IMG/VR virus record: IMGVR_UViG_3300009149_000118
Coordinates: 1-36,931 of that record
Source: a virus
Strand: one strand, 5' to 3'
DNA: 36,931 bases
Both the position numbers and the translations under genes were made by a program. A model generated the notes under the pieces. The model did no database searches, was not told the origin of the DNA, and saw only the letters and a list, made by a program, of their open reading frames with translations. Each line of letters starts with the position of its first letter. The first letter of the stretch is position 1. Shown here one piece after another: positions 137 to 32,495 of this stretch.

Positions 137-194
137 TAAAAGTTTTTGTCCTGAGTGTGGGAAATTATAAACAGAGCGTTAAAGGATGATTAAA

Positions 195-395
195 ATGACT
201 AATAAAGAAAAACTATTGAAGATATCAGCTATGTACGCTGAAGCTGCTGAGAATGGGAATGGGTTTATTTACAAAGGTGGTACTAATGCTACTGACGGAT
301 ATCCAACTCTAGCTTCACATTTACTTGATTGGAGAGTAGCACCTCCATCTAAATCTAAAGTGGATATGCTTTTTACTCAAGATAGTAATGAATAA
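195..395 (+). CDS. Small hypothetical protein, 66 aa
   Basis: I choose the ATG at 195 over an in-frame ATG at 186, because the AAAGGA at 181-186 sits 8 bases before 195 but directly abuts 186. The product begins MTNKEKLLKISAMYAEAAEN and has a short N-terminal helix followed by a Gly/Thr-rich segment and the motif SHLLDWRVAPPSK. No membrane segment or cysteine is present. It is soluble, acidic to neutral, and of unknown function. It stands apart from the next gene by about 47 bases, so it is the least tightly coupled gene of the plus-strand group. Confidence 0.6.
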   Translation: MTNKEKLLKISAMYAEAAENGNGFIYKGGTNATDGYPTLASHLLDWRVAPPSKSKVDMLFTQDSNE

Positions 396-442
396 CAAAG
401 AAAAATCATGCATAGCATGTGCTATATATTGGAGGATATGTA

Positions 443-1042
443 ATGGATAACAAAGAAATAGATATAAATAAGCGCATAGAATTGCATGGTTTATGGTTAA
501 ATTTATGCGAAGATGGGGAAAAGTTAGTACTTATTGGAGCTGATTTACAAGGAATTAATTTAAGCAAAGCTGATTTAAGAGAAGCTAATCTAATAAGAAC
601 TGAGTTAAGCGACGCTAATCTATGTGGAGCTAATCTATGTAGGGCTGATTTAACAGGAGCTGATTTAAGAAGAACTAAATTACAAGGAACTAATTTAAGA
701 GGAGCTAATTTAAGAGAAGCTGATTTAACAGGAGCTGATTTAAGAGAAGCTAATCTATATGGAGCTAATTTAAGAAGAACTAATTTAACAGGAGCTGATT
801 TAAAAGAAGCTAATTTATGTGAAACCCTTGGAAACTCGAAAGAAATCAAAACAATACAAACCAATCGGTACTTAATTAATTACACAAATCAAGTCATGCA
901 GATTGGATGTGAAAATCACCTGATAGAAGATTGGTTTAATTTCGATGACGAGGTTATATTAAGAATGGAGGGAGAAGCTGCTCTAAGTTGGTGGAAACAC
1001 TGGAAACCTATTTTAAAACAAATTATCGATGGTGGAGAATAA
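443..1042 (+). CDS. Pentapeptide-repeat protein
   Basis: The start at 443 has a near-perfect GGAGGA six bases upstream (431-436); the longer frame from 419 would put that site inside the gene. Residues about 31-126 are an unbroken series of roughly 19 A(D/N)LxX pentapeptides (GADLQ, KADLR, GANLC and so on), which fold into a right-handed quadrilateral beta-helix. A short N-terminal lead-in (NKRIELHGLWL) precedes them, as is usual in phage members. The C-terminal part (about 137-196) is a helical Trp-rich segment with QIGC and WWKHW that I recall from other phage pentapeptide proteins. Some relatives mimic DNA and bind gyrase, but nothing here proves that role. The repeats make the DNA itself a 15-base periodic tandem repeat. 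Confidence 0.85.
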   Translation: MDNKEIDINKRIELHGLWLNLCEDGEKLVLIGADLQGINLSKADLREANLIRTELSDANLCGANLCRADLTGADLRRTKLQGTNLRGANLREADLTGADLREANLYGANLRRTNLTGADLKEANLCETLGNSKEIKTIQTNRYLINYTNQVMQIGCENHLIEDWFNFDDEVILRMEGEAALSWWKHWKPILKQIIDGGE

Positions 1043-1045
1043 ATA

Positions 1046-1216
1046 ATGTGGCGAATACAATTCTGGCTATTAGCATGGATTGAGTTAGCTGAAACCCTAA
1101 TTAAAATATTTACTTTTTATACTGTAGTACCAAATTGGTATTTTAAAATAATGAGTATTATTACAATAAGAAAAGTTAAAAAAAGGATAAATAATGAAAG
1201 AAGTACAGTGCGCTAA
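1046..1216 (+). CDS. Small hydrophobic protein, 56 aa, probably membrane-associated
   Basis: This short gene starts at an ATG three bases after the pentapeptide gene stop. The Shine-Dalgarno GGTGGAG (1031-1037) lies inside the end of that gene, eight bases before the ATG, so translation is probably coupled. The product begins MWRIQFWLLAWIELAETLIK and is hydrophobic and aromatic for its first 40 residues, then ends in a basic tail (RKVKKRINNERSTVR). This looks like one amphipathic or membrane helix with a positive cytoplasmic tail. Its last 23 bases overlap the next gene. I do not recognise a family. Placement, ribosome site and composition support a real gene. Confidence 0.55.
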   Translation: MWRIQFWLLAWIELAETLIKIFTFYTVVPNWYFKIMSIITIRKVKKRINNERSTVR

Positions 1217-1727
1217 TTGCAGCAATAAAATGACGGCACTAAGTGAAAATAATAAACCTATTAGTGTTTGCCGTTATAAAGAGACAGTACCACCGTTATC
1301 CACATTGCATAACTGTGAGCATTTTAAAGCCCGAAATGAGTATGTCTTGTCTAAAATAGCAAAGTGTCTTAAACAAAGACATCAGCAGAAAAATATAGAT
1401 AAAGAAAAAGTTAGAGATATAGCAAAAAGAGTTATAGAAGCTCATGATGAACCATTTAAAGCTAAAACAGCACAAGATTTTCTCACTAAATCCAAAGAAA
1501 CAATGGATGAAAGGGGTAAATCTTGGACTACTCAAGAGGACGGAAATCATTATAAAGATATGGTTATACAACCAATGCAGTTAAGCATGGAAAATAAATT
1601 AAATGCTTTACAACATACTATTATTAAATATGTGCTCCGCTATGACAAAAAACATAAAGATAAAACAATTGATTTAAAAAAAGCAAAACATTGTTTAGAA
1701 ATGTTAATCGAGTGGGAAGAAAAATAA
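1194..1727 (+). CDS. DUF3310-like protein with N-terminal Cys cluster
   Basis: The C-terminal 62 residues (about 116-177) match the pattern of DUF3310 (SaV-type) phage proteins: DGNHYKDMVIQPMQ, then a helix ending IIKYVLRYDKK, then DLKKAKHCLEMLIEW. These are common phage proteins of unsettled function, sometimes annotated as nucleotide kinase-like without firm evidence. The N-terminal part carries C6, C9, C26 and C41, spaced as a possible metal site. The middle is a charged linker. AAGGA at 1183-1187 lies six bases before the ATG, and the gene overlaps the small membrane ORF before it. The DUF3310 call is fairly secure; metal binding is inferred. Confidence 0.75.
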   Translation: MKEVQCANCSNKMTALSENNKPISVCRYKETVPPLSTLHNCEHFKARNEYVLSKIAKCLKQRHQQKNIDKEKVRDIAKRVIEAHDEPFKAKTAQDFLTKSKETMDERGKSWTTQEDGNHYKDMVIQPMQLSMENKLNALQHTIIKYVLRYDKKHKDKTIDLKKAKHCLEMLIEWEEK

Positions 1728-1778
1728 TGTTTAAAGAGATTGAATGTGATGCTAGGTCATTAAGCAAAAGGTTAAATA

Positions 1779-2012
1779 ATGAAATATAAAAAGATAAAAG
1801 AACTGCCTCAAGGTGTATATAAGATCCATTATGAAAATGGACAAATAGAATTTAGTTTTTTATGGAAATCCAAATTTGGTGATACCCTAATATTTCCTAT
1901 TTGCAATGAGAGTTTTGTAGATGAATTAGATAAAAAATTTGCTAAAACAATAATAGGCATACAAAGTGTTAGCTATATTACAAAAAATGTAGGATCTCAT
2001 AATGCCACATAG
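1779..2012 (+). CDS. Hypothetical protein, 77 aa
   Basis: The ATG at 1779 follows AAAAGG (1766-1771) with a seven-base spacer. The product has alternating hydrophobic and polar residues (GVYKIHYENGQIEFSFLW, then TIIGIQSVSYI), which suggests a small mostly beta fold. There are no cysteine pairs or membrane segments. It overlaps the next gene by 11 bases. A 20-codon frame (1727-1789) bridges it to the DUF3310 gene through a TAATG overlap and may simply serve ribosome re-initiation. I do not recognise the family. Confidence 0.6.
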   Translation: MKYKKIKELPQGVYKIHYENGQIEFSFLWKSKFGDTLIFPICNESFVDELDKKFAKTIIGIQSVSYITKNVGSHNAT

Positions 2013-2190
2013 AGAATATCCAGTAACAGCATGCAGTAAGTCCAACTGCCTTAAACATAATTGTCCAAACAATATAGGCAATTCAAATCATGACAAGAAA
2101 ACATTCGACTTTAGTAGCTGTATGTATTACATACCAAATGAGCCTATATTACCCAAACGCAAAGAAAAAATAAGAAGGAACAATAGATAA
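2002..2190 (+). CDS. Four-cysteine small protein, possible metal-binding
   Basis: The product has 62 residues with C11, C16, C21 and C40 and a strongly basic C-terminus (LPKRKEKIRRNNR). The cysteine layout, followed by an aromatic pair (CMYY), resembles the N-terminal cluster of the DUF3310-like protein two genes upstream and is compatible with one zinc site. TAGGA at 1990-1994 lies seven bases before the ATG. It overlaps its upstream neighbour by 11 bases and its downstream neighbour by one (TAATG). A nucleic-acid binding role is possible given the basic tail, but this is inference only. Confidence 0.6.
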   Translation: MPHREYPVTACSKSNCLKHNCPNNIGNSNHDKKTFDFSSCMYYIPNEPILPKRKEKIRRNNR

Positions 2191-2381
2191 TGAAAATACC
2201 ATTTAGCAAAAAAGAATTATTTAGAGATAATTGTAAATTACAAAAAGAATTGGATGAATTAATTCGAGTAAATATGCATTTGCGATTAGCAGTGGAAATG
2301 CAAAAGAAAGATTTGAAGGATGCTAATGATAGAATCCAAAAAGCCAATGAAATAATCAGTAGGGATAATAGTAATGGCTAA
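2190..2381 (+). CDS. Small coiled-coil protein, 63 aa
   Basis: The start overlaps the previous stop as TAATG, with AAGGAA at 2175-2180 nine bases upstream. Nearly the whole product is one charged helix with heptad-like hydrophobics (LQKELDELIRVNMHLRLAVE, then MQKKDLKDANDRIQKANEII). It is probably a dimeric coiled coil. No catalytic motif is seen, and similar mini-proteins in phage early regions are usually uncharacterised. It overlaps the next gene by eight bases. Confidence 0.6.
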   Translation: MKIPFSKKELFRDNCKLQKELDELIRVNMHLRLAVEMQKKDLKDANDRIQKANEIISRDNSNG

Positions 2382-2568
2382 GTACAAAACAGGGGAATAC
2401 CAAATAATTTATTTCGATAAATATGGTACAAAACAAGAAACTGATACTGAAATAAATTTTACTAATTCAGTAGAAAAAGCTAAATTATACATTCGAGAAC
2501 ACCCTGATAGGAGCAGTGTAGTAGGGAGAATATTGTATAACTCTATTGACGATAAGGGTAAGCAATGA
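2374..2568 (+). CDS. Hypothetical protein, 64 aa
   Basis: The ATG at 2374 has AGGGA shortly upstream, inside the previous gene, and the gene ends in a four-base overlap with the next one (2565-2568). The sequence starts MAKYKTGEYQIIYFDKYGTK and contains a likely beta hairpin followed by a helix (NSVEKAKLYIREHPDRSS). The N-S-V-E-K-A pattern is seen in small phage beta-alpha-beta proteins. No function can be assigned. Confidence 0.6.
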   Translation: MAKYKTGEYQIIYFDKYGTKQETDTEINFTNSVEKAKLYIREHPDRSSVVGRILYNSIDDKGKQ

Positions 2569-2954
2569 ATAAAGAAAATATAAAAAAATTAAGAAAGAAA
2601 TTAAAAAAAGAGGCTACTGATGTATTAAAAATATTGTTGAAATATCATACTAAATTAGCTATCCAAAAAAGAGCTAAATTAGAACCCTGTTATGTATATT
2701 CACATATAGGTTCTACAAAAGAAATGAAACCCTATAAAATAGAAAAAGGAAATGAGTTAAATAAATATTATGAGGAATTAAATCGTATAGTAGATGATGG
2801 GAGAAAATTACATAGAGGAGTCTACAATTTATCTAATAGAACTCAAGAAGAAATAGCTGCTGATAAGGCAGTGGTTATTCCCACAAACATGAGCAATATA
2901 GAACATCTATTAGATATACATAAAAATACTTTTGCTACCAAACCCTGGAGATAA
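2565..2954 (+). CDS. Paralogue A: HTH-like small protein with shared C-terminal motif
   Basis: The product has 129 residues and aligns end to end with the next gene product. A segment at residues about 24-49 (LLKYHTKLAIQKRAKL, then PCYVYSHIG) has the shape of an XRE-type helix-turn-helix: a Thr-led helix, a hydrophobic turn, then a presumed recognition helix. The last 24 residues carry PTNMSNIEHLL and HKNTFATKPW, which the paralogue repeats nearly exactly. The N-terminus is very basic (KKLRKKLKKEA), fitting nucleic-acid contact. A regulatory DNA-binding role is inference; the paralogy is seen directly. Two bases separate it from its partner. Confidence 0.6.
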   Translation: MNKENIKKLRKKLKKEATDVLKILLKYHTKLAIQKRAKLEPCYVYSHIGSTKEMKPYKIEKGNELNKYYEELNRIVDDGRKLHRGVYNLSNRTQEEIAADKAVVIPTNMSNIEHLLDIHKNTFATKPWR

Positions 2955-2956
2955 AA

Positions 2957-3340
2957 ATGGAAGAAATATTAGATAGGAAAGTAATAAAAATAGGGATCGA
3001 GGCTATTCTTTGGAAATTATTAGCGCATTACACTAAAAAAGAAATAGAAGAAAAAGCGCATCTTACGCCTAGTTTTATTTATAAAAATATTGGTAAAACA
3101 GGAAAGGATATACGTATTAAAACAGGCGTTAAAATAGGGGAGCATGAGCATTTATTTAAAGAGTTAAAAAGATTAATATCAGCAAGGGAACGGATACTTA
3201 CTGGTGAATACAAACGGGCATCTAAAAGAAAGGACAACAGGAAAAGGGATAAAGCAGAACGGTTACCTACGGGCATGAGTAACATAGAGTTTTTAGTGGC
3301 GACTCATAAGAACAGTTTCGCCACTAAAAAATGGTGTTAA
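2957..3340 (+). CDS. Paralogue B: HTH-like small protein, last gene of the plus-strand group
   Basis: The product has 127 residues and is a diverged duplicate of the preceding gene. The HTH-like segment at about 21-46 (LLAHYTKKEIEEKAHL, then PSFIYKNIG) is a better fit to the XRE pattern than that of its paralogue. It is followed by a basic stretch (KRASKRKDNRKRDKAERL) and the shared ending GMSNIEFLVATHKNSFATKKW. Its stop codon overlaps the stop of the convergent late operon by three bases in the string TTAA. Codons for VAT and FAT near the end form the arms of a perfect inverted repeat (3290-3330). Confidence 0.6.
   Translation: MEEILDRKVIKIGIEAILWKLLAHYTKKEIEEKAHLTPSFIYKNIGKTGKDIRIKTGVKIGEHEHLFKELKRLISARERILTGEYKRASKRKDNRKRDKAERLPTGMSNIEFLVATHKNSFATKKWC
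3290..3330. repeat. Perfect 12-bp inverted repeat at the convergent junction
   Basis: The left arm TTTTTAGTGGCG (3290-3301) and right arm CGCCACTAAAAA (3319-3330) are exact reverse complements around a 17-base loop. The hairpin lies in the last codons of the plus-strand group and 7 bases beyond the last stop of the minus-strand operon. The arms begin with T5 and end with A5, the reverse of a classical A-stem-T bidirectional terminator, so no free U tract follows the stem in either direction. It may act as an RNA 3'-end structure, a processing site or a protein-binding palindrome. Confidence 0.6.
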
Positions 3341-3630
3341 TAAACAGTAATGCTAAATTTCTGTTTATTAGTCTGTGTTTTAGTCCCTTCTATAGATGTG
3401 ATCGTAGCAGTGACTAGATAAGTACCCACGTTAGAGGTGCTTATCTTAACATAAGCAATATTGTTGATAGCGTCTAATACCTCGTCCTCATTTGTAATCC
3501 CGTTTCCCAGTGTCCATGTAACGCTACTTAATGTATCATTCTCATTAGTGAGCCAAGCATCGCAGTCAATCCCGTAATATTTAGACTCACCTACAACAGC
3601 ATCAGGAAAACCAACTATTGTTTCAGCCAT
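3337..3630 (-). CDS. Ig-like small phage structural protein (fibre/tail adaptor type)
   Basis: The ATG at 3630 has AGGAG seven bases upstream. The 97-residue product follows a pattern I know from many phages: a short lead, a GESKYYGIDCDAWL segment, a V-T-W-T-L strand, then alternating beta strands ending in TYLVTATITSIEGTKTQTNK. This suggests an Ig-like beta sandwich, often annotated as a fibre-tail adaptor or minor structural protein. It is the final gene of the minus-strand late operon and shares its stop position with the convergent plus-strand gene. Confidence 0.6.
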   Translation of the reverse strand: MAETIVGFPDAVVGESKYYGIDCDAWLTNENDTLSSVTWTLGNGITNEDEVLDAINNIAYVKISTSNVGTYLVTATITSIEGTKTQTNKQKFSITVY

Positions 3631-6126: not shown

Positions 6127-6540
6127 TTAGGGTTTAAATGTTATTATTCTATCACAATTACGCACATCAAAGTGTAACCATGTAACGTCTAATTCTATAC
6201 CTCTAATATATTTGAATATATCAGCATCTGGATTAGCTTGTATATGTTTTCTTATTGTTTCTGCTGTATGACTATGAAATATACAATCAAAAGCTCTCCC
6301 AAATGAGTGCTGAGATGTAGGACTGTAATAAGGACTATTGTGTGTTCTTAAACCAGACCATTCCCTATCACCTCCCCAGAAGTAATTATTAACAGTAATG
6401 GCTCCATATTTGTCTCTAAGAGCATCTAATGTCCATAATGCTCTATCATCTAATAACTGCCATGCTTTCTCACCTCTGGATTTATATATGTCAGGGGAAA
6501 CTAGCTCATGTATTTTAAAATTACGGCATTGATAACTCAT
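6127..6540 (-). CDS. Peptidase M15-type endolysin
   Basis: The 137-residue product matches small phage M15A-like peptidases: FKIHELVSP near the N-terminus, WQLLDDRALWTLDALRDKYG, a SGLRTH segment, and the metal-site motifs QHSFGRAFD (H78, D85) and WLHFDVRN (H123). These residues bind zinc in the M15 family, which cleaves peptide bonds in the peptidoglycan stem or cross-bridge. It has no signal peptide or binding domain, so it needs a holin or similar to cross the inner membrane. Its ATG overlaps the upstream stop by four bases (ATGA). This is the best-supported lysis gene in the window. Confidence 0.85.
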   Translation of the reverse strand: MSYQCRNFKIHELVSPDIYKSRGEKAWQLLDDRALWTLDALRDKYGAITVNNYFWGGDREWSGLRTHNSPYYSPTSQHSFGRAFDCIFHSHTAETIRKHIQANPDADIFKYIRGIELDVTWLHFDVRNCDRIITFKP

Positions 6541-7016
6541 TGTTTTTTCCTATTCTCTTTCCATGCTTTATCACCGTACCACTTTAAAGCAAGCCATGCC
6601 GCTTTATCTAAAATAATCATACCATTCACTTGTTTAGCAACTTCTAAAAACAATGCATCCCAATGGTCTTTACCATATCCTTCACAACATCTATGTGAGT
6701 AAGTTTTATCATTAATGATATGAACGCCATCAGCCACCACTACAATAATGTGATCGTACCGATAAGCATAATCGTGAATGAGTCCAGGAATTAACAATAT
6801 ACCTGTTGGACTTAAAAACCACCAAAGTTGTCTAGGGACGCTTGCACCGTCAAAGACGAACCCTTTAGGAATTTTAATAATTGAACCATTATTTAAGGTA
6901 AAATAAAAGTCTTCTATTAATTCCCATTTACGGGTAGTATTCCACCAGACTTTTATCCTTGCCCAAAAATTACTATTTTTTGTTCCGATCTTTATCGGTT
7001 TTAATATAGGGTACAT
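6537..7016 (-). CDS. DUF1353 family protein
   Basis: The 159-residue product contains the DUF1353 signature IPKGFVFDGASVPRQLWW (residues about 49-66) followed by HDYAYR at 81-86. These proteins are widespread in phages of Gram-negative bacteria and often sit beside lysins or tail genes; their function is not settled. The conserved His-Asp pair has suggested a hydrolase-like site, but that is not established. The C-terminus is rich in Trp and Lys. It overlaps the endolysin start by four bases, so the two are probably translated together. Confidence 0.8.
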   Translation of the reverse strand: MYPILKPIKIGTKNSNFWARIKVWWNTTRKWELIEDFYFTLNNGSIIKIPKGFVFDGASVPRQLWWFLSPTGILLIPGLIHDYAYRYDHIIVVVADGVHIINDKTYSHRCCEGYGKDHWDALFLEVAKQVNGMIILDKAAWLALKWYGDKAWKENRKKQ

Positions 7017-7650: not shown

Positions 7651-8261
7651 TTACTTAGAACCTGTGGATACGTTACCTCAGAGTCATTATCATACGTTTG
7701 TACTGAGTTATCATTATTTTCTGTATTAGTAGTCACAGTATCTTGAGTCTCAGTAGATTGAGTATTATTAGTTATACTAGTATTTTGGTTTGAGCTTGTG
7801 CTTACATCACTAGACTCTGACTTACTACTACTAGTTGATGCTGTATTGCTATCCCCGTTTATTACATTAGTATTAGATGTAGTCGTATTGCCTGTGCCCA
7901 TATTGTTACTAAACGATTTTAATATTCTAGTCACACCTATGGCACCTGCTACATATCCAACCCCTGTAATTACATCAGGTATACTTGCTTTAACTACATC
8001 GTTACGATTAGTAACGGTAGGTACAATAACCCGTCTATCACGAGGGTCAGTATAGCTGACTTTAGCATTTCCACATCCTTGACTGCAATCCACTGTTAAA
8101 GTTTCTTTGACTTCTATTTTTGATTGAGCTTCAACTATTCTGGCTTGAGCTTCATACCCCATCCTCATCTCGTTCTCAGATGCACACGAAGTAATAAATA
8201 TAATGATTAAGACTAATAACGTTGTCCATAAAATTACTGCAAACGCATCAAATTCTTTCAT
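7647..8261 (-). CDS. Predicted lipoprotein with Ser/Thr/Asn-rich tail
   Basis: The N-terminus has a hydrophobic stretch ending LVLIIIFITSC, which fits a signal peptidase II lipobox with Cys26 as the lipidated residue. The mature part has a helical segment, two further cysteines (DCSQGCG) and a second hydrophobic patch near the middle (VITGVGYVAGAIGV). The last 80 residues are a low-complexity Ser/Thr/Asn/Asp tail. A lipoprotein among membrane genes near a lysin could be an outer-membrane spanin or an exclusion lipoprotein, but it is longer than usual o-spanins. The lipobox supports a Gram-negative host. Confidence 0.6.
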   Translation of the reverse strand: MKEFDAFAVILWTTLLVLIIIFITSCASENEMRMGYEAQARIVEAQSKIEVKETLTVDCSQGCGNAKVSYTDPRDRRVIVPTVTNRNDVVKASIPDVITGVGYVAGAIGVTRILKSFSNNMGTGNTTTSNTNVINGDSNTASTSSSKSESSDVSTSSNQNTSITNNTQSTETQDTVTTNTENNDNSVQTYDNDSEVTYPQVLSK

Positions 8262-9316: not shown

Positions 9317-11968
9317 TTAATAAATCATACCTGCACCCTGATAACCTACGGGTAAGTATGTAAGTGTTGAATTAATAGTCTTAATTGTGCCTCCTGAAAG
9401 ATTATAGTACGGAGAGTATCCTGGAACCGCTGGATTAACAAATGGACCACATTTAGCACCACAATTACCTACAAAAGTGGTAAAAGTAGCATCACTATAT
9501 ACTCTGTTATTAGAAATATCTTCTTGACAATCTACAGCAGCTTGAAAATTACCGTTCCAATAAAATATTAATCTGCCTAGATTATAATCAATAGACATTC
9601 CTAAAATATCATTAACTGCAAGGTTTCTTGATGTGCCTACACCTACTGCGGATCCACTAGAATATACACTAGCATTCTCGGCATCATACCCTATTCCTTG
9701 TGCGATTGCTCCTATATTATTTGATGCAAATAATAAAGGATCACGAACACTAATACCTTGAATATGCCAATATCCTCCAGATATATCATCAATCACTATT
9801 TCAAAATAAGATTTTTGATAAGGTAAAATAGAGCAAGCTGCAAAGGCTGTTTGCCAACCATTAGCTGTTCTATTTGCTGTCAAGTCACTATTAGTTAAAG
9901 TAATATTACTGCCCGTTACCAAAGGATCGAATCCAGGCTCAACTACAGGTTCTGTAATAACAGGTACGGGTGGTGTATAAACACCTGCTTGACCATATAA
10001 AGTGGTTATTTCAACTGCACTTAATTCATAGTCGAATATAGCCATATCCTGCATTCTACCATCTAACATTTCTCCTGCGGTAGAGTCTCCCCCTATATAA
10101 TGGTATAACTGTGGTGTTGTATATGAGGTTGTTGTAACGCCTATATAAACTCCGTCAATATATAATTTAGAAAATCCACCGGTTTTGGTCACTACTATAT
10201 GATAAACTGGTCCTGTAGTTAATGGTATATTTGCAGGTGTAAAACCTCCACCACCACTTCCCATCTCTAATATCCCATTTACTGACCTTAACCCAACAGA
10301 TATAGTTGCTGCAAAATAGCTGTCGTAATTAACATCAATAACATGATGTCTTAAAAAGAAAGATATTGAATAATCATCACCCATCCGTACATTTGTACTT
10401 ATAGTTCCTGTCTTAAAAGTTACAGAGGTTCTAGTAGTATCAAACATCGGTAATTTCTCATATGACGGTGTTCCATTATATTTACCGTTATGACCCCCTT
10501 GCATATTATCTATAGCTAAATCCCCGCTCTGATCATTAAGCTGCCAATAAGCAACTGGATTCAAAGCATATACTGCTGCTGAATAATCATCAGTACTTGC
10601 AGGAATAGCAGGAGACATTAAATAATGCATTAATGTTACTGTATCAGAAGGGAAAGCTCCTTGAAATATTGCAACTTCATCTACATCCCCATTAAAAGCG
10701 TCAGAACCCGTACTTGTTGCGCCAATTCTGTAAAATTCACAATTCCTTCTATCACTAACATAGGTATAAACTAGTTCACCATTTACATAGACATATGTGT
10801 TAGCGGTATCCATTACTAATACAAGATGATATGTAACGCCTACCTCTAATAAGAAGTCAGTGTTTCTCCAGGTTCCTGCATATAACTGTAGTTTTCCAGA
10901 ATAATTATAAAACCGTAAACCAGTTGTTTGATTAAGAACTGAAATACAACCTAATACATTGGCATTTACTTTAATTGTTGCTGTATAAGTATACTCTCCT
11001 GTAAATGTAGGAAGAGTGGTATCTACTGTCATATAGTCATTTGGTACAAAAGTCACACACGTATCAGAACTTCCTTGGATTAATGAAGTAGCCCCTAAAA
11101 TAGGTGATCCAGTATATGTTCCGTTATACAATCCCATTTCATCTACAGCAACTACACCTGAAGGTTCTCCTAATCTCCAATAGGCTACAGGTCCAAGGCT
11201 TGTTAATAACCCTGAATAATCTAAATCGTCAGATAAAGGTACACTTCCAGAAGGTGTACAAGTACCTAATCCATAATTATATAATTGATCTATATTAGCT
11301 TGAGTAAATATTTTACTCTGCCAAATCGCTATATTATCTAAATATCCGTCAGTTATACCTCCTCCTAAAGTAAGTCCAACGGAAGTTGCCCACAGAGGAA
11401 CTGATGGAGGAGGAAAACTACTAATTTTTAAAACTTTATTTATATAAAGCCTTAATTCGTCACTTTTAACTATAACAGCTATATGAAACCATGTATCCTT
11501 AGGATAGTCTGTAGTCTGTATTGATTGTAGTCCTAAATCTGCTAATCTTGCAAGTTGTAATATATCACCAGATATAATCTTTAAGTATACCCCTCCAACA
11601 CCACTTTCATATTGGTCAAATAAGGACAAGTCTGTTGAATCTCTAGTAGGCAGTTTTGCCCACATAGAAATACTAAAACCAAATACTGATAATAAATTAT
11701 CAGTATTTAATCCAATACTAATATTTTGATCAGAGTTTTCAAAGCATACCGAAGTACCTTGATCTTTATGAGGACTCAATTGTCCTAACAAAACACCATT
11801 ATTGTATACTCCAGATTGGTTTCCCATTGCGTCTATTACAGCTGTTCCAGATAATTCATCTAATTTCCATAAATAATCTGGATTCATATCTGAAGTGCAA
11901 GTTTGCGATAAACTTGATGAAAGTTCAGTATTAAACCAAGTATTTCCAGATCCTACTATTGAACCCAT
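9317..11968 (-). CDS. Large lectin-like tail protein: three LamG-like domains and a SPRY-like end
   Basis: I choose the ATG at 11968 (MGSIVGSGNTWF), which has AGGTG nine bases upstream and lies four bases after the upstream stop; a GTG at 11980 would overlap. The 883 residues hold three concanavalin A-like LamG modules at about 25-245, 255-455 and 470-675. Each opens with WxL or YWxL plus a D-x-MG segment and contains the HIAV/HLVLV and LYINKVLK/VYVNGELV strands typical of LamG_3. A SPRY-like C-terminal module (about 690-880) includes GISVRDPLLF and LGMSIDYNLGRLIFYWNG. It is probably a distal tail or side-fibre adhesin that binds surface glycans. It follows a related larger gene. Confidence 0.75.
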   Translation of the reverse strand: MGSIVGSGNTWFNTELSSSLSQTCTSDMNPDYLWKLDELSGTAVIDAMGNQSGVYNNGVLLGQLSPHKDQGTSVCFENSDQNISIGLNTDNLLSVFGFSISMWAKLPTRDSTDLSLFDQYESGVGGVYLKIISGDILQLARLADLGLQSIQTTDYPKDTWFHIAVIVKSDELRLYINKVLKISSFPPPSVPLWATSVGLTLGGGITDGYLDNIAIWQSKIFTQANIDQLYNYGLGTCTPSGSVPLSDDLDYSGLLTSLGPVAYWRLGEPSGVVAVDEMGLYNGTYTGSPILGATSLIQGSSDTCVTFVPNDYMTVDTTLPTFTGEYTYTATIKVNANVLGCISVLNQTTGLRFYNYSGKLQLYAGTWRNTDFLLEVGVTYHLVLVMDTANTYVYVNGELVYTYVSDRRNCEFYRIGATSTGSDAFNGDVDEVAIFQGAFPSDTVTLMHYLMSPAIPASTDDYSAAVYALNPVAYWQLNDQSGDLAIDNMQGGHNGKYNGTPSYEKLPMFDTTRTSVTFKTGTISTNVRMGDDYSISFFLRHHVIDVNYDSYFAATISVGLRSVNGILEMGSGGGGFTPANIPLTTGPVYHIVVTKTGGFSKLYIDGVYIGVTTTSYTTPQLYHYIGGDSTAGEMLDGRMQDMAIFDYELSAVEITTLYGQAGVYTPPVPVITEPVVEPGFDPLVTGSNITLTNSDLTANRTANGWQTAFAACSILPYQKSYFEIVIDDISGGYWHIQGISVRDPLLFASNNIGAIAQGIGYDAENASVYSSGSAVGVGTSRNLAVNDILGMSIDYNLGRLIFYWNGNFQAAVDCQEDISNNRVYSDATFTTFVGNCGAKCGPFVNPAVPGYSPYYNLSGGTIKTINSTLTYLPVGYQGAGMIY

Positions 11969-11972
11969 AGCT

Positions 11973-14900
11973 TTAAACACCTATCATATTTATTTTTGTT
12001 AGTAAAACTTCAATCTCGTCATCAGCATTACTAAAATGAGTTAGAAAGTGAAAATTATTAGTAGTTGCCTTTGTTATTCCTGTCTCCCAAGAAAGTCCAG
12101 ATGGTTTCTTATACCAAGTTATTTGTGTAGCTTCAATATATATAGCGACAGTATCTCCTGCTACAAAAGAAAACCCAGTAGAAGTTATACCTTCATCATA
12201 AAAATCTCCATCTGATCTTAATCCAAATTCATTAGTATTTGAACCTATACTATTTGTTAGATTTTTTAATGGATCATTAGTAAAACCTAAAGATACATTT
12301 CCAACTAAAGTTATTATTTTAACTTCTATATAAGCGTCTGCTGTATTAAAATATCTATACGCAGGTATCCTTGTATTTGCGTTTGTTGGTATTACACTTT
12401 CTCCAGAATAAGTAACTGGAACTTCTAACATCTTATACATTCCCGGAGAGGTATATTTTTCATATAACACATCTACTTCAGCAGATGTTAATACCGCTTG
12501 AGTTATGGCTATATCAGAGATTGTACTAACTACAGAATCCCCTAAAGTAATAGCTGTACCTGCTGTTACTGTATTGAAACTTACAGAAATTGTTTCTGTT
12601 TGTCCATTAATATAGAAAGTAACATCAGTTGTGTCATAAGTAATACAGAAAAATAATGATGATAATAATGTTGGATCTGCTAACGTACAAGTAGTGGTAG
12701 TTGTCCCATCACTAATTTCAAAGAATCCTCCTGAAACTCTGATAACAAATAAAGTACCCACTCTAATGATGTTTTGATTTACTCTACTAATAACCCCATA
12801 AACACTAAAACTTCCTGTTGGTAATGTTGATGGTAATGTTCCAACCATTGTTGAGGATAACCCTTGAAGGTAGCCTTTTAAATCATACTCACTACCGTGA
12901 CCCGGATCTACCTCAAAAGTAGTTATACTAGTTAATGTTAAAGGTGTACCAGTAGCACTATCAATCGCTTCAGTTGATAGTGTCGGTTCTTCTAGCTTCC
13001 AATGGTAAAGCAATCCATCATTTACATCTGATAAATCTAATAGTCTTGCTGCATATAAAGAATCAACATCAGTTTGTTCAAATAGTCCATTAAATAAAGC
13101 AACTTCATCTACAGCTCCTATTAAAAATGAATCAGCAACTAAAACTGGTAAACCTAAAGCAAGTGCTGCAGGACTGTCTAGGCTAGACATCCCAACAAAG
13201 TGCCCATAACTTGATAAAGCTCCTGGAGGATTTGTTGCTGTTGTTTGCTCACCTATTAATACACTATCAATCCATAATCTATAAGTGACCCCAGCTGTTG
13301 CACTATCATAACTAGCTACAATATGATAGACAGTATCTACAACTGCTAATGCAGGGCTATCTATAATAGCAACTGGTAAACTTGCGAATGTCGCATAAAA
13401 ACCTATAGATCCATCATATAAACATACTTCTATTCCTGCTGCTTTACTACCGTCTACAAAAATAGATTGATGTCCTGTTACTGTATCAAATTTAACAAAG
13501 CAACTAAAAGTTCCTGTACGATACTTTAAATAATTAATGAACTTATACTCAAACCCTAAAAGACCTGATATTCCTACTGGACTTAATGCACCAAATCCAG
13601 TACCGTCTAATACCAAAGATTTTCCTGATGGATCTGTTGAAGCACCTAACAAGCTAGTAGCAAAAGTTGGAAATGTAGTTTCGTTTGTTCCATTATACCT
13701 ATTTGCTATTCTATGTTGAGAAGAACTCATAGCTAGCATATGCTTATTAGTTAATGTTTGATCAAATATTCTATTATTTTCTTCATCAAATTTATAAAAT
13801 ACTTTTACACCTAACTGTCGACATATTTTATCATAGTAAGTTGAATATGTTGAATAATGCCTTCCACGATAGTATATTTCATCCATTTCAGGACTGCTCA
13901 ACTCTCTATCCCATACAACAACATTAGACACATGCCCAAATACACCTAAAGTACTGTCATTTTTAATACCGATATAAATAGGTGCCGATGTATGTGTTCC
14001 TGTTAATGAATGCCCACTTCTTGACCCTATATCAATTAAACATTCTGGGGAATAGTGATCTGAAAAATAATACCATCCAGCCTTAGTTTTAAAAACTATA
14101 ATCGTATCACCGTGCGCTATACCATACTTATTATTTACAATACCTGTTCCACTTATATACCCAAAAGGAGTACCAAATTGAGACCCTGCAGAATACGAAG
14201 CAGAAAAAGCTGTTGTTAGATTTTCAACATCTAAAGCTGTCATTGATGTTGTCTTAGGTGCATTAATGAAAGTCAATACAATCATTATAGTAAAATCAGA
14301 TTCACGATATTCTTTCCCAACTAAAAAGTCACTAGGAAAAGAAAAGCCACTAGAACCATCTAACAAGGCACTACCTAATGCATCTCTAACTTGAGCTAAA
14401 TTTTCAAAAGAAGGTGTTCCTATAGTAGTCATATTTGGATGAGAATAATCACCAAATGTAGAAATATCTCTTGTGTCTACGTCTAATGGGAAATATTTTA
14501 TTGGTTTTGTAAATCTTAAAATATAATTCTGCATAGTACTTGGTAATACTATTGTATCACTATGATTATCTTGTGTTTCATCTCCCCAAATATCGTAATC
14601 ATTATATTCATTTTGTTCACCAATTACAGTTTTTGGGTTTTTTAATATTTGTGGATAGTTTTGTAATTTTTTTGGTATAATTAATTTGTGCGCACCATAT
14701 GTTTTATTCATATAAATGTAATATGTACTCAAAGGCACAGGTAAAGAAAATACCATATCTCCATTTACAAAGTAAGTTACCTTTCTTTTTACCATATCTA
14801 AAGCAACACCAATAATAACTTCTTGATTATTGCTTAGAACAGCCCAAGGATATATCTTCCCTAATGATGCAGTAAATACAAACCCTTGAAGAGGTTCAGT

Positions 14901-16967
14901 ATTTCTACTATAAAAATATGTTGAATTAATTCTTGTATTTGTTAACCCCCAACCACTATTACCGTTAGAAGCATAAGTTGTAGAGTAATTATTAAAGTTA
15001 AAATTATATTGATTAGAACCAGGATCAAAAACTCTATCAGAAGCTATAGCCAAATGAACATCGAACCATAGTGCTGAATCACCTCTTGTAGTTACTACAA
15101 ATTCAAAGTATCTTTTACCAGAACTATAACCATGAGAAGTTTTAAACCATTCTAAATTAGAACCACCAGTTGCTACTCTATTTGAATTATAATATGCACC
15201 TGTATTAAGATCAAAAGATGAATCCCAAGTTTCATAACTATTATTTGTAGTTATAGTATTATCATATTCTTCTAACTCTACAGCATTATAGTGTGTAGTT
15301 ATCCTAGCATCTGTTAACCTATGATCTACCCCATAAAACGCTAAGTTTTTAATAGAGCCTTCACACCCTGATAATACAGTAGTTAGATTAGTATTAGCAA
15401 GAGCATACATCCCATAACCAATATATAGATTCTTAGTCTCTGTAAATTTTAAGCTTACCCCGTTATACGGGCCACCAATAGTATTAGTAAAAGTAACAGC
15501 ACAAGCAACATCATTAATAGTGATAGTAAAGTCACTATCAATATCATCTGATCTAATAACAACATGATTCCAAGTACTACTGTCTAATACACAAGGATTA
15601 GTTGTTGATACCGCATGATGTCTATAGTTAAGAAAGTTCTGTTTTGTGCTGACTGAAACATGACCTGTGCTTAATACAGCAACACTATTTTCACCATCAA
15701 TAACACTATCATTTTTTTCAAATATAACTGCATCTGCTGTACCTGCACCTTTGTACCAAAATTCTATAGTAGCTAGTTGTGCAGTTTTAACTAAGTTATA
15801 ACTTGAAGCTTCATAGTTTTGTGGTTTTCCTGTATAAGCATAATGTGTACTAGCACACTTTAAACCATTACCGTTAGGTTCAAAAGCTTGATCGCCTAAG
15901 TTATCATCTAATATTGATGTATAAATATGTGTATTATTACCTGCTAAATCAAAACCATCTTGCTTACCATCAATACCATTTAATTTATTATAATAACAAG
16001 GTTGATCGTCTAATACTACACTATCATAGTCAGTTTTAGTTACATTTAATAATTCTAATCTTTCCTTTAACACACATAAATTTACTAATAAACTATTATC
16101 ATCATCAGTTGGAGCTGCACTAAACCTTAATCTACTGATATAAAATGAATTATATACATTTTTTATAACACTTTTAGGGTAGGGAGTATTATTACTGGTT
16201 AAAGTTGCTGCACCAATAGTAACAGTATCAAATCTAGTATCAGGATAATCAGTTATTTTTCCATCTGAAGGGCTTGCATCACTATCTCCAGCATCTTGTG
16301 ATCTTGATTTTTGTAACTTTCCATCAAAATACAAGCCTTGCCCCTGAGAACTAAAATCTAACATTATATGATGCCATGTATTATTCTCTAATACAGCTTC
16401 AGTATAATGCAATGAACCATACACAGTATTTGGTCCATTTACATACCATACTAAATGATTTCCAGTATCGCTTATGCCTATAAAATTCGAGAAGCCTGTA
16501 CCGCTAGTTTCTAAGCTATTATTAAAGCATATTATTGATTGTGAAACCCCTGAAGGGCCAAGGCTATAACTTCCAAATCTATAAGCTGCTATATCTGCCG
16601 CTGGATGCCTATTAGAAATTAAATCTATATCTGGATTAGAAGAATAAAACCAAAAATCAATAATCATTCTTTCAGTTAGTTTTGCCTGCAGAGTGCCTAA
16701 ATTATTTGCAGTTAAATAAGAGCCATCACCTAGTTTGACAGAACCATTTGAGCTATTAGGTCCAGTTTGTCCGTATAAAGGTGTTCCTACAGCAGTAAGT
16801 GTAAGAGCATTATCTTCATCAGTTAGAGCAGCAGCTTCAATACCACTTGTAAAATACCAAAACCCAAGTCTAGTAGTAGATAAATTACAAGATAATGGAG
16901 GGTCTAATGGTCCAGTAGGGGTTTTATATTCATCTGTTAAAAAATTTAGTAGTTTAAAGTGGTGCAT
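11973..16967 (-). CDS. Giant lectin-like tail protein: five LamG-like and two SPRY-like domains
   Basis: The 1,664-residue protein has a strong ribosome site (GAGGAG seven bases before the ATG). I read LamG-like modules at roughly 35-285, 310-560, 815-1040, 1055-1300 and 1310-1500, recognised by repeated elements such as NTWHHIMLDFS, STWNHVVIRSD, VYHIVASYDS, and the terminal SRLRF / VALFNGLFEQTDVDSLYAARL type helices. A SPRY-like domain lies at about 575-775 (GKRYFEFVVTT, VIIGVALDMVKRKVTYFVNG) and a second one at 1510-1664. Such domains bind carbohydrates or surface proteins. The upstream gene encodes a fibre-chaperone-like protein, which supports a receptor-binding role at the tail tip. Confidence 0.75.
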   Translation of the reverse strand: MHHFKLLNFLTDEYKTPTGPLDPPLSCNLSTTRLGFWYFTSGIEAAALTDEDNALTLTAVGTPLYGQTGPNSSNGSVKLGDGSYLTANNLGTLQAKLTERMIIDFWFYSSNPDIDLISNRHPAADIAAYRFGSYSLGPSGVSQSIICFNNSLETSGTGFSNFIGISDTGNHLVWYVNGPNTVYGSLHYTEAVLENNTWHHIMLDFSSQGQGLYFDGKLQKSRSQDAGDSDASPSDGKITDYPDTRFDTVTIGAATLTSNNTPYPKSVIKNVYNSFYISRLRFSAAPTDDDNSLLVNLCVLKERLELLNVTKTDYDSVVLDDQPCYYNKLNGIDGKQDGFDLAGNNTHIYTSILDDNLGDQAFEPNGNGLKCASTHYAYTGKPQNYEASSYNLVKTAQLATIEFWYKGAGTADAVIFEKNDSVIDGENSVAVLSTGHVSVSTKQNFLNYRHHAVSTTNPCVLDSSTWNHVVIRSDDIDSDFTITINDVACAVTFTNTIGGPYNGVSLKFTETKNLYIGYGMYALANTNLTTVLSGCEGSIKNLAFYGVDHRLTDARITTHYNAVELEEYDNTITTNNSYETWDSSFDLNTGAYYNSNRVATGGSNLEWFKTSHGYSSGKRYFEFVVTTRGDSALWFDVHLAIASDRVFDPGSNQYNFNFNNYSTTYASNGNSGWGLTNTRINSTYFYSRNTEPLQGFVFTASLGKIYPWAVLSNNQEVIIGVALDMVKRKVTYFVNGDMVFSLPVPLSTYYIYMNKTYGAHKLIIPKKLQNYPQILKNPKTVIGEQNEYNDYDIWGDETQDNHSDTIVLPSTMQNYILRFTKPIKYFPLDVDTRDISTFGDYSHPNMTTIGTPSFENLAQVRDALGSALLDGSSGFSFPSDFLVGKEYRESDFTIMIVLTFINAPKTTSMTALDVENLTTAFSASYSAGSQFGTPFGYISGTGIVNNKYGIAHGDTIIVFKTKAGWYYFSDHYSPECLIDIGSRSGHSLTGTHTSAPIYIGIKNDSTLGVFGHVSNVVVWDRELSSPEMDEIYYRGRHYSTYSTYYDKICRQLGVKVFYKFDEENNRIFDQTLTNKHMLAMSSSQHRIANRYNGTNETTFPTFATSLLGASTDPSGKSLVLDGTGFGALSPVGISGLLGFEYKFINYLKYRTGTFSCFVKFDTVTGHQSIFVDGSKAAGIEVCLYDGSIGFYATFASLPVAIIDSPALAVVDTVYHIVASYDSATAGVTYRLWIDSVLIGEQTTATNPPGALSSYGHFVGMSSLDSPAALALGLPVLVADSFLIGAVDEVALFNGLFEQTDVDSLYAARLLDLSDVNDGLLYHWKLEEPTLSTEAIDSATGTPLTLTSITTFEVDPGHGSEYDLKGYLQGLSSTMVGTLPSTLPTGSFSVYGVISRVNQNIIRVGTLFVIRVSGGFFEISDGTTTTTCTLADPTLLSSLFFCITYDTTDVTFYINGQTETISVSFNTVTAGTAITLGDSVVSTISDIAITQAVLTSAEVDVLYEKYTSPGMYKMLEVPVTYSGESVIPTNANTRIPAYRYFNTADAYIEVKIITLVGNVSLGFTNDPLKNLTNSIGSNTNEFGLRSDGDFYDEGITSTGFSFVAGDTVAIYIEATQITWYKKPSGLSWETGITKATTNNFHFLTHFSNADDEIEVLLTKINMIGV

Positions 16968-19537: not shown

Positions 19538-21196
19538 TTAAGGACAAGCGGTTATAGGTCTAAAACCTAATAACTTATATGTCACTAACATTCTCTTAGT
19601 ATTAACATTAATACCAATCACAACAAATTTATCATCATCTATTTCAAAATATTCACTGTTTATAGTTACTGTATCACCTAAATCTAAAGCATCATGTTGG
19701 TCACAAGTACTATCATTATTACTTATCAAATAATTGGTATCTGATATCAATACAGTTGTACTTGATATTCTTACACCGGTACAATTATTAGTCATTACAC
19801 CCAATACTATACCTGTGTTAGATGCTAAGATTGGACAAGTTACTTCAAAAATATCATTTATTTGATTCCTATGTGCTAACCATGCCGCTGTTTCTGTAAC
19901 AGCATCAGCAGAATAACGAATATTACTATCAATATCAACTGTTTCTAAATCATTATACAATGCCACATTACATGTTAAAAGAGCAGAAGTTTTTAAGTAT
20001 TCATTCTTATAAACTTCTATATCTTTTACATTAACTAAACCACTTAAATCACCAGTATTTTGAATGGTGTAATTTTTTTGATAACCTAAATTTATTTGTT
20101 TAGGTGGAAATTCATATTCTACCTTTTCAACTTTAAAAGCGATAATATCTGTATTATCAATAAAATCTTGCCCCGCATCTAAAAATCTAACTAAAGGTGT
20201 ATTAAGTTCATATCCTCTCACAGTATTCACATTTAGATCACCTACTGCATCAAACCAGTAAATAACATCTAAATTATCAATGATTGATTTAAATAATTTT
20301 ACATAAGTAGTGGATGATGTTTGATAAAGTCCAAAAGTATAACTAGGTGCAAAATGAATCACTGAACCATTCAATGATAATTCTGAAACAAGAAAATTTA
20401 CAAAATCAGTAACAGTTTTTGTTACCTGCTTTACATCAATTGTAATATCGTATACAGGTTTTGAACCTAACTTAATAGTACCTTCAGCTAAACAAGTATG
20501 ATAATTACCTGATATAGGAGCAGTAGCGGCATCCATTAAAGCAGTAGTAGCATAATCTGCTGTAAATGTTAATGCTCCACCTCCATCTTTGACAGCATCA
20601 ATACTAGCAACTGCGGCTCTTGCACCAGCGTAATCCCAATTACAACCATAAACCAACGTATTAGATTTTAAAAGTACAGGCGTAATATTAAATACATCAC
20701 CAAATAATCTTGGTTTAGTTTTATCTTTTAGTTCTATTTCGCCCTCGAAATTAGCCGGAACACCGGTAAATACTTCAGGATTAATAACTTTAGTCAGCAC
20801 ATCAAAATGAGATTTAGCTTTAATTTCAACTGTTTTTCTTTTTACTAATAATGTATCGCACTCACCTATAAATAACGGATACCATACATTAGATGACGGA
20901 GCGAAATTAGATTTAACATATATTTTCATACTACGATCATGAAATAAATAGTCGTTTAAATAGTTTTGATCTTTATTTATCAAACGAACATTCATACTAT
21001 CATTCGTATTACCTAATTTTCTTTGTAATAATATTGAATCTTTAAGTAAAGGCTCATAAAATCTTTCTTCTGTATCACCTGCAATAAAAGCTGTAAATCC
21101 TGAGTTAGAAAAATAAAATGTAGATTCCAATCCTGTATCAAATGATACACCCGTTATTTGTAGAGCAATTTGAAGTTGCTCTCTTTGAACACTCAC
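19538..21196 (-). CDS. Baseplate hub / tail tip protein candidate
   Basis: The 552-residue product starts at a GTG that overlaps the tape-measure stop by four bases (GTGA). The first 130 residues are beta-rich (FYFSNSGFTAFIAGD, LLQRKLGNTNDSMNVRLIN, LFIGECDTLLVKRKTVEIKA). They are followed by a segment, EIELKDKTKPRLFGDVFNIT, whose KPRLFG-x-x-N-I pattern I associate with phage hub and tail-tip proteins. The C-terminus carries a long domain with repeated short strands. Direct placement after the tape measure fits a protein that closes the distal end of the tube. Confidence 0.6.
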   Translation of the reverse strand: MSVQREQLQIALQITGVSFDTGLESTFYFSNSGFTAFIAGDTEERFYEPLLKDSILLQRKLGNTNDSMNVRLINKDQNYLNDYLFHDRSMKIYVKSNFAPSSNVWYPLFIGECDTLLVKRKTVEIKAKSHFDVLTKVINPEVFTGVPANFEGEIELKDKTKPRLFGDVFNITPVLLKSNTLVYGCNWDYAGARAAVASIDAVKDGGGALTFTADYATTALMDAATAPISGNYHTCLAEGTIKLGSKPVYDITIDVKQVTKTVTDFVNFLVSELSLNGSVIHFAPSYTFGLYQTSSTTYVKLFKSIIDNLDVIYWFDAVGDLNVNTVRGYELNTPLVRFLDAGQDFIDNTDIIAFKVEKVEYEFPPKQINLGYQKNYTIQNTGDLSGLVNVKDIEVYKNEYLKTSALLTCNVALYNDLETVDIDSNIRYSADAVTETAAWLAHRNQINDIFEVTCPILASNTGIVLGVMTNNCTGVRISSTTVLISDTNYLISNNDSTCDQHDALDLGDTVTINSEYFEIDDDKFVVIGINVNTKRMLVTYKLLGFRPITACP

Positions 21197-24100
21197 TTTA
21201 AACGCTCCATATTAACAACATCTTCTTGAGCATCAGCTTGTCTTTTTTGATGCTCGATGGTTTCTTTAAATCCAAATGAGTTAATCTGTCTTAAATTTGA
21301 TACTTCTTCTCTCAATTGCCTTAATTCTTCAATGATTTCATCATTATCTTGAACTGGTGTACCAGATATACCGTATTGTCTTAATTGTTGTGAAGTACTA
21401 GGGTCAATAACCATCTCACCTTGATGCAGGTAAGCGTATTGATTTTCAGGAACAAAATCTGTACCGTTCAAATAAGAAGGAACATTTAATCCAGTATTTA
21501 ACGCTCTTGAATTTTGCAACATTAACCAAATACCTTCGTTTCTTAATGCTCCGTCTGCTCTAATTGCTATTGTTTCCTGTAACAAATTAAAAATATTTTC
21601 ACCGATAAATTGAAGCATTTGATTATCAGTGAATTGCCCACCATAACCATTAATTGAGGTAGATGAATCAGTTCTTATACCTATCAATTCAGTTAACATT
21701 AAATTATTACGTTCAGCAATAAAATGAAGTAATTGATTATCAGAATATTGTCCACCATAACCTAAATCAACTGCTTGTCTGGATGCTTCTGATTCAATAT
21801 TATTTAATGTTCCGTCAATATTAGATAATATTCTATTTCCTAATTGATTCTCTTGAGCGACAGCTTCATTCCAAGCGTTTATATCGTCCATAGTGAACCC
21901 TAATTCATTTTTAAGGTAATCAGTAACCACTTCATTAGAAGTTCCTATAACGTGCGCTAATTTGTTTGTAGACCATAAATTATCACCGGCAATCTCTAGT
22001 AATATTTTAACTAAAGCATCATCACCATTATTTAAATTTTCAGTCAATTTAACTAAATCAATATCATTAGATGCAGCGAGTTCTAAAATTGATACATCTT
22101 TTGCCAAAGATGAATCAACAAGAACATTAGCTAATTTTTCAGAATTAAGTTGATTCTTATTTATCTCTTCTTGTGCTGAAATTGAATCTTCTAACAACTT
22201 AATTTGATAATCAATATCAGTTATCGACCAACCTTTAAATTCAGAATCAATATCTTTAGGATCTTCAGTAAGAATTGAACTAGGATCAACAATCATACTT
22301 TCTAATTTTGACGTTACATCATCAAAGATTGAAGAATATTGTTGTGTGGACGCATAAAATTTTTGAGAAAAATCTAAGTAATCTTTAGCATATCCTGCTG
22401 CTTTATCAACATCACCTAATGCGACACTTTCGTTGAATAATTTTCCAGCAGCTTGCATTTGTTCTAAAGGAGATTGATTTTTAAGATCGGATATTTTTAA
22501 CTCATCCAACAGATCCATAATTGTTTTATTAGCATCAATGGCTGCTTGATATCTTTCTAAATCAGTTAAAAGAGCTTCACCGGCTAAATCAGCATTAAAT
22601 AGCATTAACTCACGTTGCTCTCTTAAAAATTCCAAACGAGCCTCATCACCTGTTGGAAATAAATCAGCTTTTAATGAATCTAACTCTGATTGCAATGATT
22701 TAATGATATCTTTCAATCTGATCATTGCACTACCTAATTTTTGCAACGAAGGCAAAGCATCTCTTGTAGCTTCATCAGAACCATCTAATGTCTTTATGTA
22801 TTTGGCTAAATCTTTTGTAGTGTAACTGGTATGATCAGCAAGTACACCAAACTCATTATATACTTCTTGAATTTCTCTAATTGATGTTTCAAGATCAGAA
22901 TTATCGTATAAAGAATTAAATAATTTTTCAATGGAAGTATTAAACTCTTCAATAGCTTCTAAATTTTCCTTAATAGCATCATCTTGATCTTTATATGCGT
23001 CATTTAATAATTTTAAATCATCAATTAAAACTAGTAATGTAGGATCAGTTTCATCTAATGATTTAGCATATTCCTGCAAAGCATCTACATCAAATAATGA
23101 CAAATCTATATCATATTTTTCTGACAAATTATCAATTGTATTGGATGCTTTTTCTAATGGGGTTAAGTTTGAGTTTACTAAATCCTGTATTGATTCTTTG
23201 ATTTTTCCAAAATGATCTCTCATGAAAACAATAGCATCAGTCAATTCATAAATTGACTGTATATGGTCAATATCTGCTTGACGCCTTAAATTAACTGAAT
23301 CAATATATTTCACCACATCTTCAGCAGTTCTACCGAATTGTCCACCTAAATTATCAATTACTCTAAGAGCTTTTTCATAATCTTCAACACCTAATAATCT
23401 GTCTTTAGCATCTTGTAGTTTAACAAATTCATCAATCATTGAAGCGGTTAATTCTTCCTTTAAATCTCTCTCATCGGTGATGGTTTGTTTATAGGCGTCT
23501 TGTGCTGATATGAAATCTGTAAATACACCTTCTAATGCTGCTACCTGTCCCCATAATTTTTGACCTTCTTCATCAACAGTATCTATACTTGCTAATAGAT
23601 TTAAAAATCCTTGAGCAGTACTAGGTAAAGTAAATCCTAATGCTTCAAATGCTTTTGTGGCTCTGTCAGTGGCTATTTGAAATTGTTTGCCTTCACCTAA
23701 TAAACCGATAATACCATCCAACGATCCTTGTAGATTATCTAATCCACCTGCACCAAATAATGTAGAAGATGTTAGTGTCCCACTTCCTAGCGCATTAATT
23801 TGTAAACGGACATCTTCCATCGTTCTATAAGCATTATATATATCTTCTGCACTACCTGTTAATGTCCTCATTATGTCGAGAACACCATCACCCATACCGC
23901 CTACAAGTTCTTCAGCATTAATAATGGTCTGCTTAATAATTTCAGCACCCACATCTCCTTGTTTATTTACAACATCGGTGAATTTTATAGTAACATCTTC
24001 AAATCGCTGACCTAGTTTAGAAACATAATAATCAGAAACTTGAACATCTCTGGACACTCTAACTAATGTTTCAAATAATCCTTCACCTATTTTTTGGAAA

Positions 24101-28701: not shown

Positions 28702-28752
28702 AAAAAAGGGTGACTCTCTTATACTCCACAGGAAGTAAGTATAAGAGAGTCA
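28702..28752 (-). terminator. Intrinsic terminator after the major tail tube gene
   Basis: A perfect 14-bp inverted repeat (28711-28724 with 28739-28752; arm TGACTCTCTTATAC) encloses a 14-base loop. Read on the minus strand, the stem starts 7 bases after the tube stop codon and is followed after three bases by T6 (28707-28702), the standard layout of a Rho-independent terminator. Its strength would separate abundant tube transcripts from the less needed chaperone and tape-measure transcripts. Confidence 0.85.
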
Positions 28753-29972: not shown

Positions 29973-30014
29973 ATATCTCCTAATAAATTATTAAGTGTTA
30001 TGATTAGGAGATAT
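29973..30014 (-). promoter_or_regulatory. Hairpin enclosing the tube gene Shine-Dalgarno
   Basis: The arm ATATCTCCTAAT (read on the plus strand at 29973-29984) pairs perfectly with 30003-30014 around an 18-base loop. On the tube mRNA the 3' arm contains AGGAG (29981-29977), placed eight bases before the ATG, so the fold would hide the ribosome site inside a 12-bp stem with 8 A-T pairs. The stem is weak enough to open in response to ribosome loading, temperature or a binding factor, which suggests translational control of tail tube synthesis. Alternatively the palindrome could stabilise the 5' end. Confidence 0.6.
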
Positions 30015-32398: not shown

Positions 32399-32495
32399 AT
32401 CGCTAATTTCCAATCAAAAATTATCAATCGTTTAGGATTGTAGCAGAGAAGTGATTGAATCTTCTTTTTCAGGAGCAACCCCTAGCTACAAAATT

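Follow-up and report, generated by a model that had tools for sequence, protein, structure and literature searches.

A tandem pair of paralogous genes in a siphovirus encodes small basic proteins that may be DNA-binding regulators

We analyzed the whole of a 36,931-base virus record, IMGVR_UViG_3300009149_000118 (hereafter, the window), which comes from a little-sampled siphovirus. The open reading frames (ORFs) that we took as genes form a + strand set spanning 186 to 3340 and a - strand set running from 3337 to the right end. In the - strand set, PHROG matches identify ORF 21193-27840 as a tape measure protein and 28760-29968 as a tail protein. The genes of interest, P0001 and P0002, are the final two of the + strand set, presumably an early or middle operon, and they face the structural operon on the - strand; at 3337-3340 the convergent genes have overlapping stop codons. 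Spacing is close throughout: the P0001 ATG shares bases with the stop codon of ORF 2374-2568 just upstream (ATGA), P0002 begins 2 nt past the P0001 stop, and a GGAG lies inside the P0001 coding sequence (Table 1). This placement of the GGAG, together with the close spacing and the ATGA overlap, suggests that the two genes may be translationally coupled.

Neither an Rfam family nor a tRNA was found anywhere in the window. The + strand operon also encodes a 207-aa pentapeptide-repeat protein at 419-1042 (Pfam, 1.9e-46). Two very large ORFs of 887 and 1664 aa at 9317-16967 carry repeated domains that by eye resemble LamG. Within the - strand structural operon by position, an ORF at 31574-32413 contains three treble-clef-like repeats (CapR, 5.5e-11; DUF4379, 5.7e-10) and has a match to MUG113 below threshold (E 0.0042); it looks like a mobile endonuclease-type insertion.

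Table 1. Positions of features in and around the P0001/P0002 pair, numbered along the window.
Feature	Positions	Strand	Basis
P0001, first paralogue, 129 aa	2565-2954	+	ORF coordinates, identical to those of the sequence-only reading
P0001 putative HTH helices 2 and 3, residues 30-48	2652-2708	+	AlphaFold2 helices 30-37 and 43-48
P0001 tail, residues 106-128	2880-2948	+	alignment, 16/23 identical
GGAG, Shine-Dalgarno-like, 6 nt 5' of P0002 ATG, within last P0001 codons	2947-2950	+	sequence
P0002, second paralogue, 127 aa	2957-3340	+	ORF coordinates, identical to those of the sequence-only reading
P0002 putative HTH helices 2 and 3, residues 27-48	3035-3100	+	AlphaFold2 helices 27-33 and 40-48
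P0002 tail, residues 104-126	3266-3334	+	alignment, 16/23 identical
13-bp perfect inverted repeat with 15-nt loop (arms 3290-3302 and 3318-3330), in P0002 tail codons	3290-3330	unassigned	
Second hairpin, 14-nt arms, 93% complementary (3338-3351 and 3357-3370), at convergent junction	3338-3370	unassigned	

A sequence-only reading of this locus had described the neighboring genes as related, and they are indeed tandem paralogues. BLASTP aligned them at 35% identity over 122 aa (43/122 identical, 73/122 positive, E 1e-22), and their local alignment score of 194 far exceeded the best of 5,000 shuffles (66). When the proteins were divided into pieces, the N-terminal piece alone scored 75 (shuffle maximum 62) and the tail piece 99 (shuffle maximum 50), with none of 5,000 shuffles reaching either value; the middle piece alone was weak, as its score of 36 was reached by 32 of 5,000 shuffles. 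Identity with P0001 was 13/32 over residues 17-48 of P0002, the putative helix-turn-helix (HTH) segment, and 8/48 over residues 49-97. A blastn comparison of the two genes as DNA, with a word size of 7, found no alignment longer than 17 bases. Among 126 aligned codons, 46 residues were identical but just 20 of these used the same codon, and identities at codon positions 1, 2, and 3 numbered 69, 77, and 51. From these codon-position identities and the absence of a long DNA alignment we infer that the duplication is probably old and that both copies have been kept as proteins. No third copy was found within the window at E 10.

The best conserved part of the pair is the C-terminal tail, with the consensus PTxMSNIExLxxxHKNxFATKxW. 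The near-identical ending noted earlier is present in both proteins, as PTnMSNIEhLldiHKNtFATKpW in P0001 and PTgMSNIEfLvatHKNsFATKkW in P0002. Since 11 of the 16 identical tail residues are encoded by different codons and only five by the same codon, the tail is conserved at the level of protein. Both paralogues are small and basic, with net charges of +12 and +14. A basic segment was also said to be shared, which did not hold up: the charge is N-terminal in P0001 (+10 in residues 1-50, +1 in residues 51-98), whereas in P0002 it sits just before the tail (+8, versus +3 in the N-terminal part).

We modeled both proteins with AlphaFold2 using a two-row alignment, that is, only the two sequences themselves. 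For P0002 (mean pLDDT 71.6, pTM 0.53), helices were predicted at residues 7-22, 27-33, 40-48, 64-82, 84-100, and 109-122; for P0001 (mean pLDDT 69.0, pTM 0.52), they were predicted at 3-25, 30-37, 43-48, 62-83, 94-101, and 111-123. The confident part comprised residues 11-40, with block pLDDT of 86-91 in P0002 and 84-87 in P0001, followed by 74 and 73, respectively, for the third-helix block (41-50). Blocks from residue 81 onward fell to 50-64 in both proteins, including 50-61 for the tail. Of the XRE-like HTH proposed from sequence, three N-terminal helices in the right order were recovered in the models, while the structural and profile searches described below returned no significant match. 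An XRE-like HTH in this pair is plausible on these models rather than established.

When the P0002 model was compared to the PDB with Foldseek, none of the 39 matches reached E 0.001. The XRE regulator 5woq held the top two rows (E 2.7 and 3.4). XRE or controller proteins made up 6 of the 39 rows, and 19 were myosin entries, including a dynamin-myosin fusion. With VIA-align, 12 of 43 rows for P0002 were XRE, controller, or ClgR chains (Z 2.4 to 3.1; labels partly putative), and these ranked under ESCRT-III and other helical rows (Z up to 5.1). The 44 rows for P0001 were headed by helical chains, those of Mediator and gyrase among them (Z up to 6.1), and C.Esp1396I was the single XRE or controller row (Z 2.1). 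No chain had a Z of at least 8 among the 111 compared with P0002 and the 64 compared with P0001, and against a viral structure library Foldseek gave 63 and 60 matches, all of them weaker than E 0.001. The absence of a notable fold match excludes no known fold.

One point of comparison is the XRE/Cro-C1 group, whose members C.Esp1396I and 5woq resemble the pair in having a small helical N-terminal domain. C.Esp1396I aligned weakly with residues 7-69 of the P0002 model (47 residues, Z 2.9, rmsd 3.0). Unlike these proteins, the pair has no sequence-family match to the group, and the XRE chains matched by Foldseek are 76-94 residues long, with neither the linker nor the conserved tail. An XRE-type HTH profile match was absent from Pfam and PHROGs, and in NCBIfam was limited to the conjugal transfer regulator TrbA (NF010465), which touches the HTH stretch of P0002 at residues 24-42; at E 0.14 and 12.3 bits versus a cut-off of 96, P0002 is not a member of that family.

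We searched broadly for relatives of the pair. No HTH family appeared in Pfam or PHROGs output at E 10, where filters drop most weak matches. Profiles from Pfam, PHROGs, NCBIfam, and PADLOC gave weak matches only, none of which was common to both paralogues. For P0002 these were Pfam PRTase-CE at residues 43-119 (E 0.0079, 16.5 bits) and PADLOC PprPIWI at residues 36-114 (E 0.0022, 14.6 bits), neither of which matched P0001. For P0001 they included phrog_37325 at residues 62-98 (E 0.0066, 17.5 bits) and NCBIfam yteA, a 'regulatory protein', at residues 5-114 (E 0.0027, 17.8 bits versus a cut-off of 134.4). Pfam FapA (E 0.62) and phrog_27983 (E 0.053) were likewise set aside as too weak. PDB sequences yielded no relative; the best E was 0.4 with P0002 as query and 0.44 with the profile built from both proteins. 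Across 50,697 INPHARED records, neither protein had a match at E 1; at E 10, P0001 still had none and P0002 had 13 records (E 3-9), which we took as chance, as we did the four PLSDB records (E 2-7) found with P0002 among 72,556 plasmids.

Pattern searches also failed to find the relatives that a C-terminal motif might have revealed in IMG/VR or GTDB. Scanning IMG/VR with each single protein gave 12 and 22 pattern stretches, and scanning with the two-row alignment gave 147 stretches in IMG/VR and 34 in GTDB, among which no relative was confirmed. Two IMG/VR scans with tail patterns gave no stretch and a third gave one, a chance PTNMTNIEAF (L009) in an unrelated open-ended ORF (7816-8061) that follows what by eye is a capsid-like ORF. 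The single tail-pattern stretch from GTDB (L005) was also due to chance, as it lies on the opposite strand of a 465-aa ORF that by eye is protease-like. In 395 genomes from a single phylum, an alignment search gave two matches (E 9.6e-4 and 0.0033), neither with HKNxFATKxW; about four are expected by chance at E 0.01 per genome, and both were rejected. At E 10, the pair's profile had no match in one genome or in three phage records of distant relationship; among the other loci compared, it matched the pair itself and, at E 4.2, L004. Pattern scans require exact short motifs and can miss diverged relatives, and records close to the window may be absent from these collections. The tail strings had no match in the literature, and such a pair was not described in titles or abstract openings among the matches listed. 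These outcomes fit the proposal that the family is undescribed. Orphan small proteins are common in phages. The pair matches nothing in the libraries searched and, judged from sequence, is new but probably ordinary in kind.

We consider that P0001 and P0002, both small and basic, may be paired phage transcription regulators that bind DNA, a reading to which we assign a probability of roughly 45%. In this scenario, an ancestral small basic DNA-binding protein would have duplicated in tandem, giving two proteins with an HTH-like three-helix N-terminus, a long central helix for dimerization, a variable linker, and the conserved tail. As coupled genes closing the + strand operon, they would supply regulators that act as heterodimers or homodimers, with diverged HTH segments selecting DNA sites and the kept tail contacting a common partner, which could be the other subunit, the host's RNA polymerase, or some further protein of the phage. 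They may thereby take part in switching to late gene expression. We counted in favor of such regulators their paralogy, protein-level selection, predicted AlphaFold2 helices, charge, weak C.Esp1396I match, and operon position, along with the comparable meeting of + and - strand modules in three distantly related phage records. Against them we counted the lack of a significant structural match or HTH family model, the reliance on two-sequence models, the outranking of XRE rows by other helical chains, the absence of a repeated operator-like motif in a crude test, and upstream ORFs without family matches in a setting equally suited to accessory genes. A bolder proposal is that PTxMSNIExLxxxHKNxFATKxW defines a new family in which an obligate co-translated heterodimer would recognize an asymmetric operator through its two diverged HTH halves, dock by the common tail on one machine of host or phage, and govern an early-to-late switch in transcription, which we hold to be decidedly doubtful. 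Should the reading of the pair as regulators hold, the tail would serve as a search marker for a class of phage regulators that current family models miss, and the pair would offer a compact system for learning how duplicated phage regulators divide targets. At present, it is one orphan pair on one phage fragment without a relative found, and the evidence here shows no unusual mechanism.

The pair could instead be accessory host-takeover proteins, with the tail binding a host factor (a polymerase, nucleoid, or defense protein), the helical N-terminus serving as a protein or DNA contact, and the duplication reflecting two targets. For the four ORFs upstream (1779-2568), PHROGs gave nothing at E 0.1 and no Pfam hit fell below E 0.04, as is typical of variable accessory stretches, and the tail is kept better than the HTH segment (16/23 versus 13/32), both of which point toward host takeover. 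The yteA match along P0001 leans the same way but is too weak to use. However, no PADLOC family covers the pair and host takeover alone does not explain the XRE-like order of helices, leaving it somewhat unlikely. A small terminase-like (TerS-like) role is very improbable. The review PMC9611059 describes TerS protomers of about 15-21 kDa, built from an N-terminal HTH, a helical core for oligomerization, and a C-terminal moiety; in lambda and P22 this last part binds TerL. By analogy, the pair would form a mixed ring with an HTH for the packaging site, a helical ring core, and a TerL-binding tail. The size range given there is near that of P0001 and P0002, and the order of parts is similar in the low-confidence models, with P0002 helices 64-82 and 84-100 following the HTH and 109-122 in the tail. 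Yet the second core helix is short in P0001 (94-101), Pfam, PHROGs, and NCBIfam gave no TerS family match, and the genes are two tandem copies that follow small early ORFs and adjoin the downstream end of the - strand structural operon, away from its upstream end.

It is also conceivable that the conserved tail is the by-product of a DNA or RNA element rather than a protein feature. P0002 tail codons contain a perfect inverted repeat next to a second hairpin at the junction (Table 1). Folding of RNA from 3275-3380 gave z-scores of -5.5 on the + strand and -6.3 on the - strand, with 0 of 200 shuffles as stable on each strand, and perfect inverted repeats of at least 13 bp with loops of 3-20 occurred twice in the window and never in 40 shuffles. 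Nevertheless, the hairpin does not account for conservation of the tail because no inverted repeat of at least 9 bp was listed in the tail of P0001. The codon differences described above largely refute this explanation, and we give it almost no weight. A likelier role for the hairpin is in ending or processing the two converging transcripts.

Scans for promoter-like and terminator-like sites gave counts near or under the shuffle mean, except that terminator-like sites were slightly in excess. The second of the window's perfect inverted repeats of at least 13 bp (15 bp, 28711-28752) has CCCTTTTTT after it on the - strand, with a T run, and looks like an intrinsic terminator just past the tail protein gene; its loop exceeds the length allowed by our terminator scan, which omitted it. 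The same gene is closely preceded by a 12-bp repeat (29973-30014). In late-strand stretches, several of which contain small ORFs, a crude comparison of common 15-mers (up to 2 mismatches) gave 12 matches, counted with overlapping registers and without a shuffle control, and no repeated operator-like motif.

The remainder of the genome offered some context. INPHARED matches to the 552-aa tail-region protein, the tail protein, and the DUF1353 protein were at 21.9-36.9% identity only among the matches listed, which include EBPR siphovirus 2 and Vibrio, Dinoroseobacter, Pelagibacter, and Methylophilales phages. A scan for relatives using the lysis gene found none. Judged by such matches, the phage is poorly sampled, with distant relatives by tail and lysis genes. 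In three distantly related phage records, one viewed over its first 50,000 bases, a + strand module meets a - strand structural module. The contig L004 encodes an identical 552-aa tail protein and, from its range, would stop about 12 kb short of the pair if collinear. The DUF1353 protein at 6537-7016 is 36.3% identical to that of Pelagibacter phage HTVC008M and 36.9% identical to that of Methylophilales phage Melnitz, which hints at an aquatic origin of the phage.
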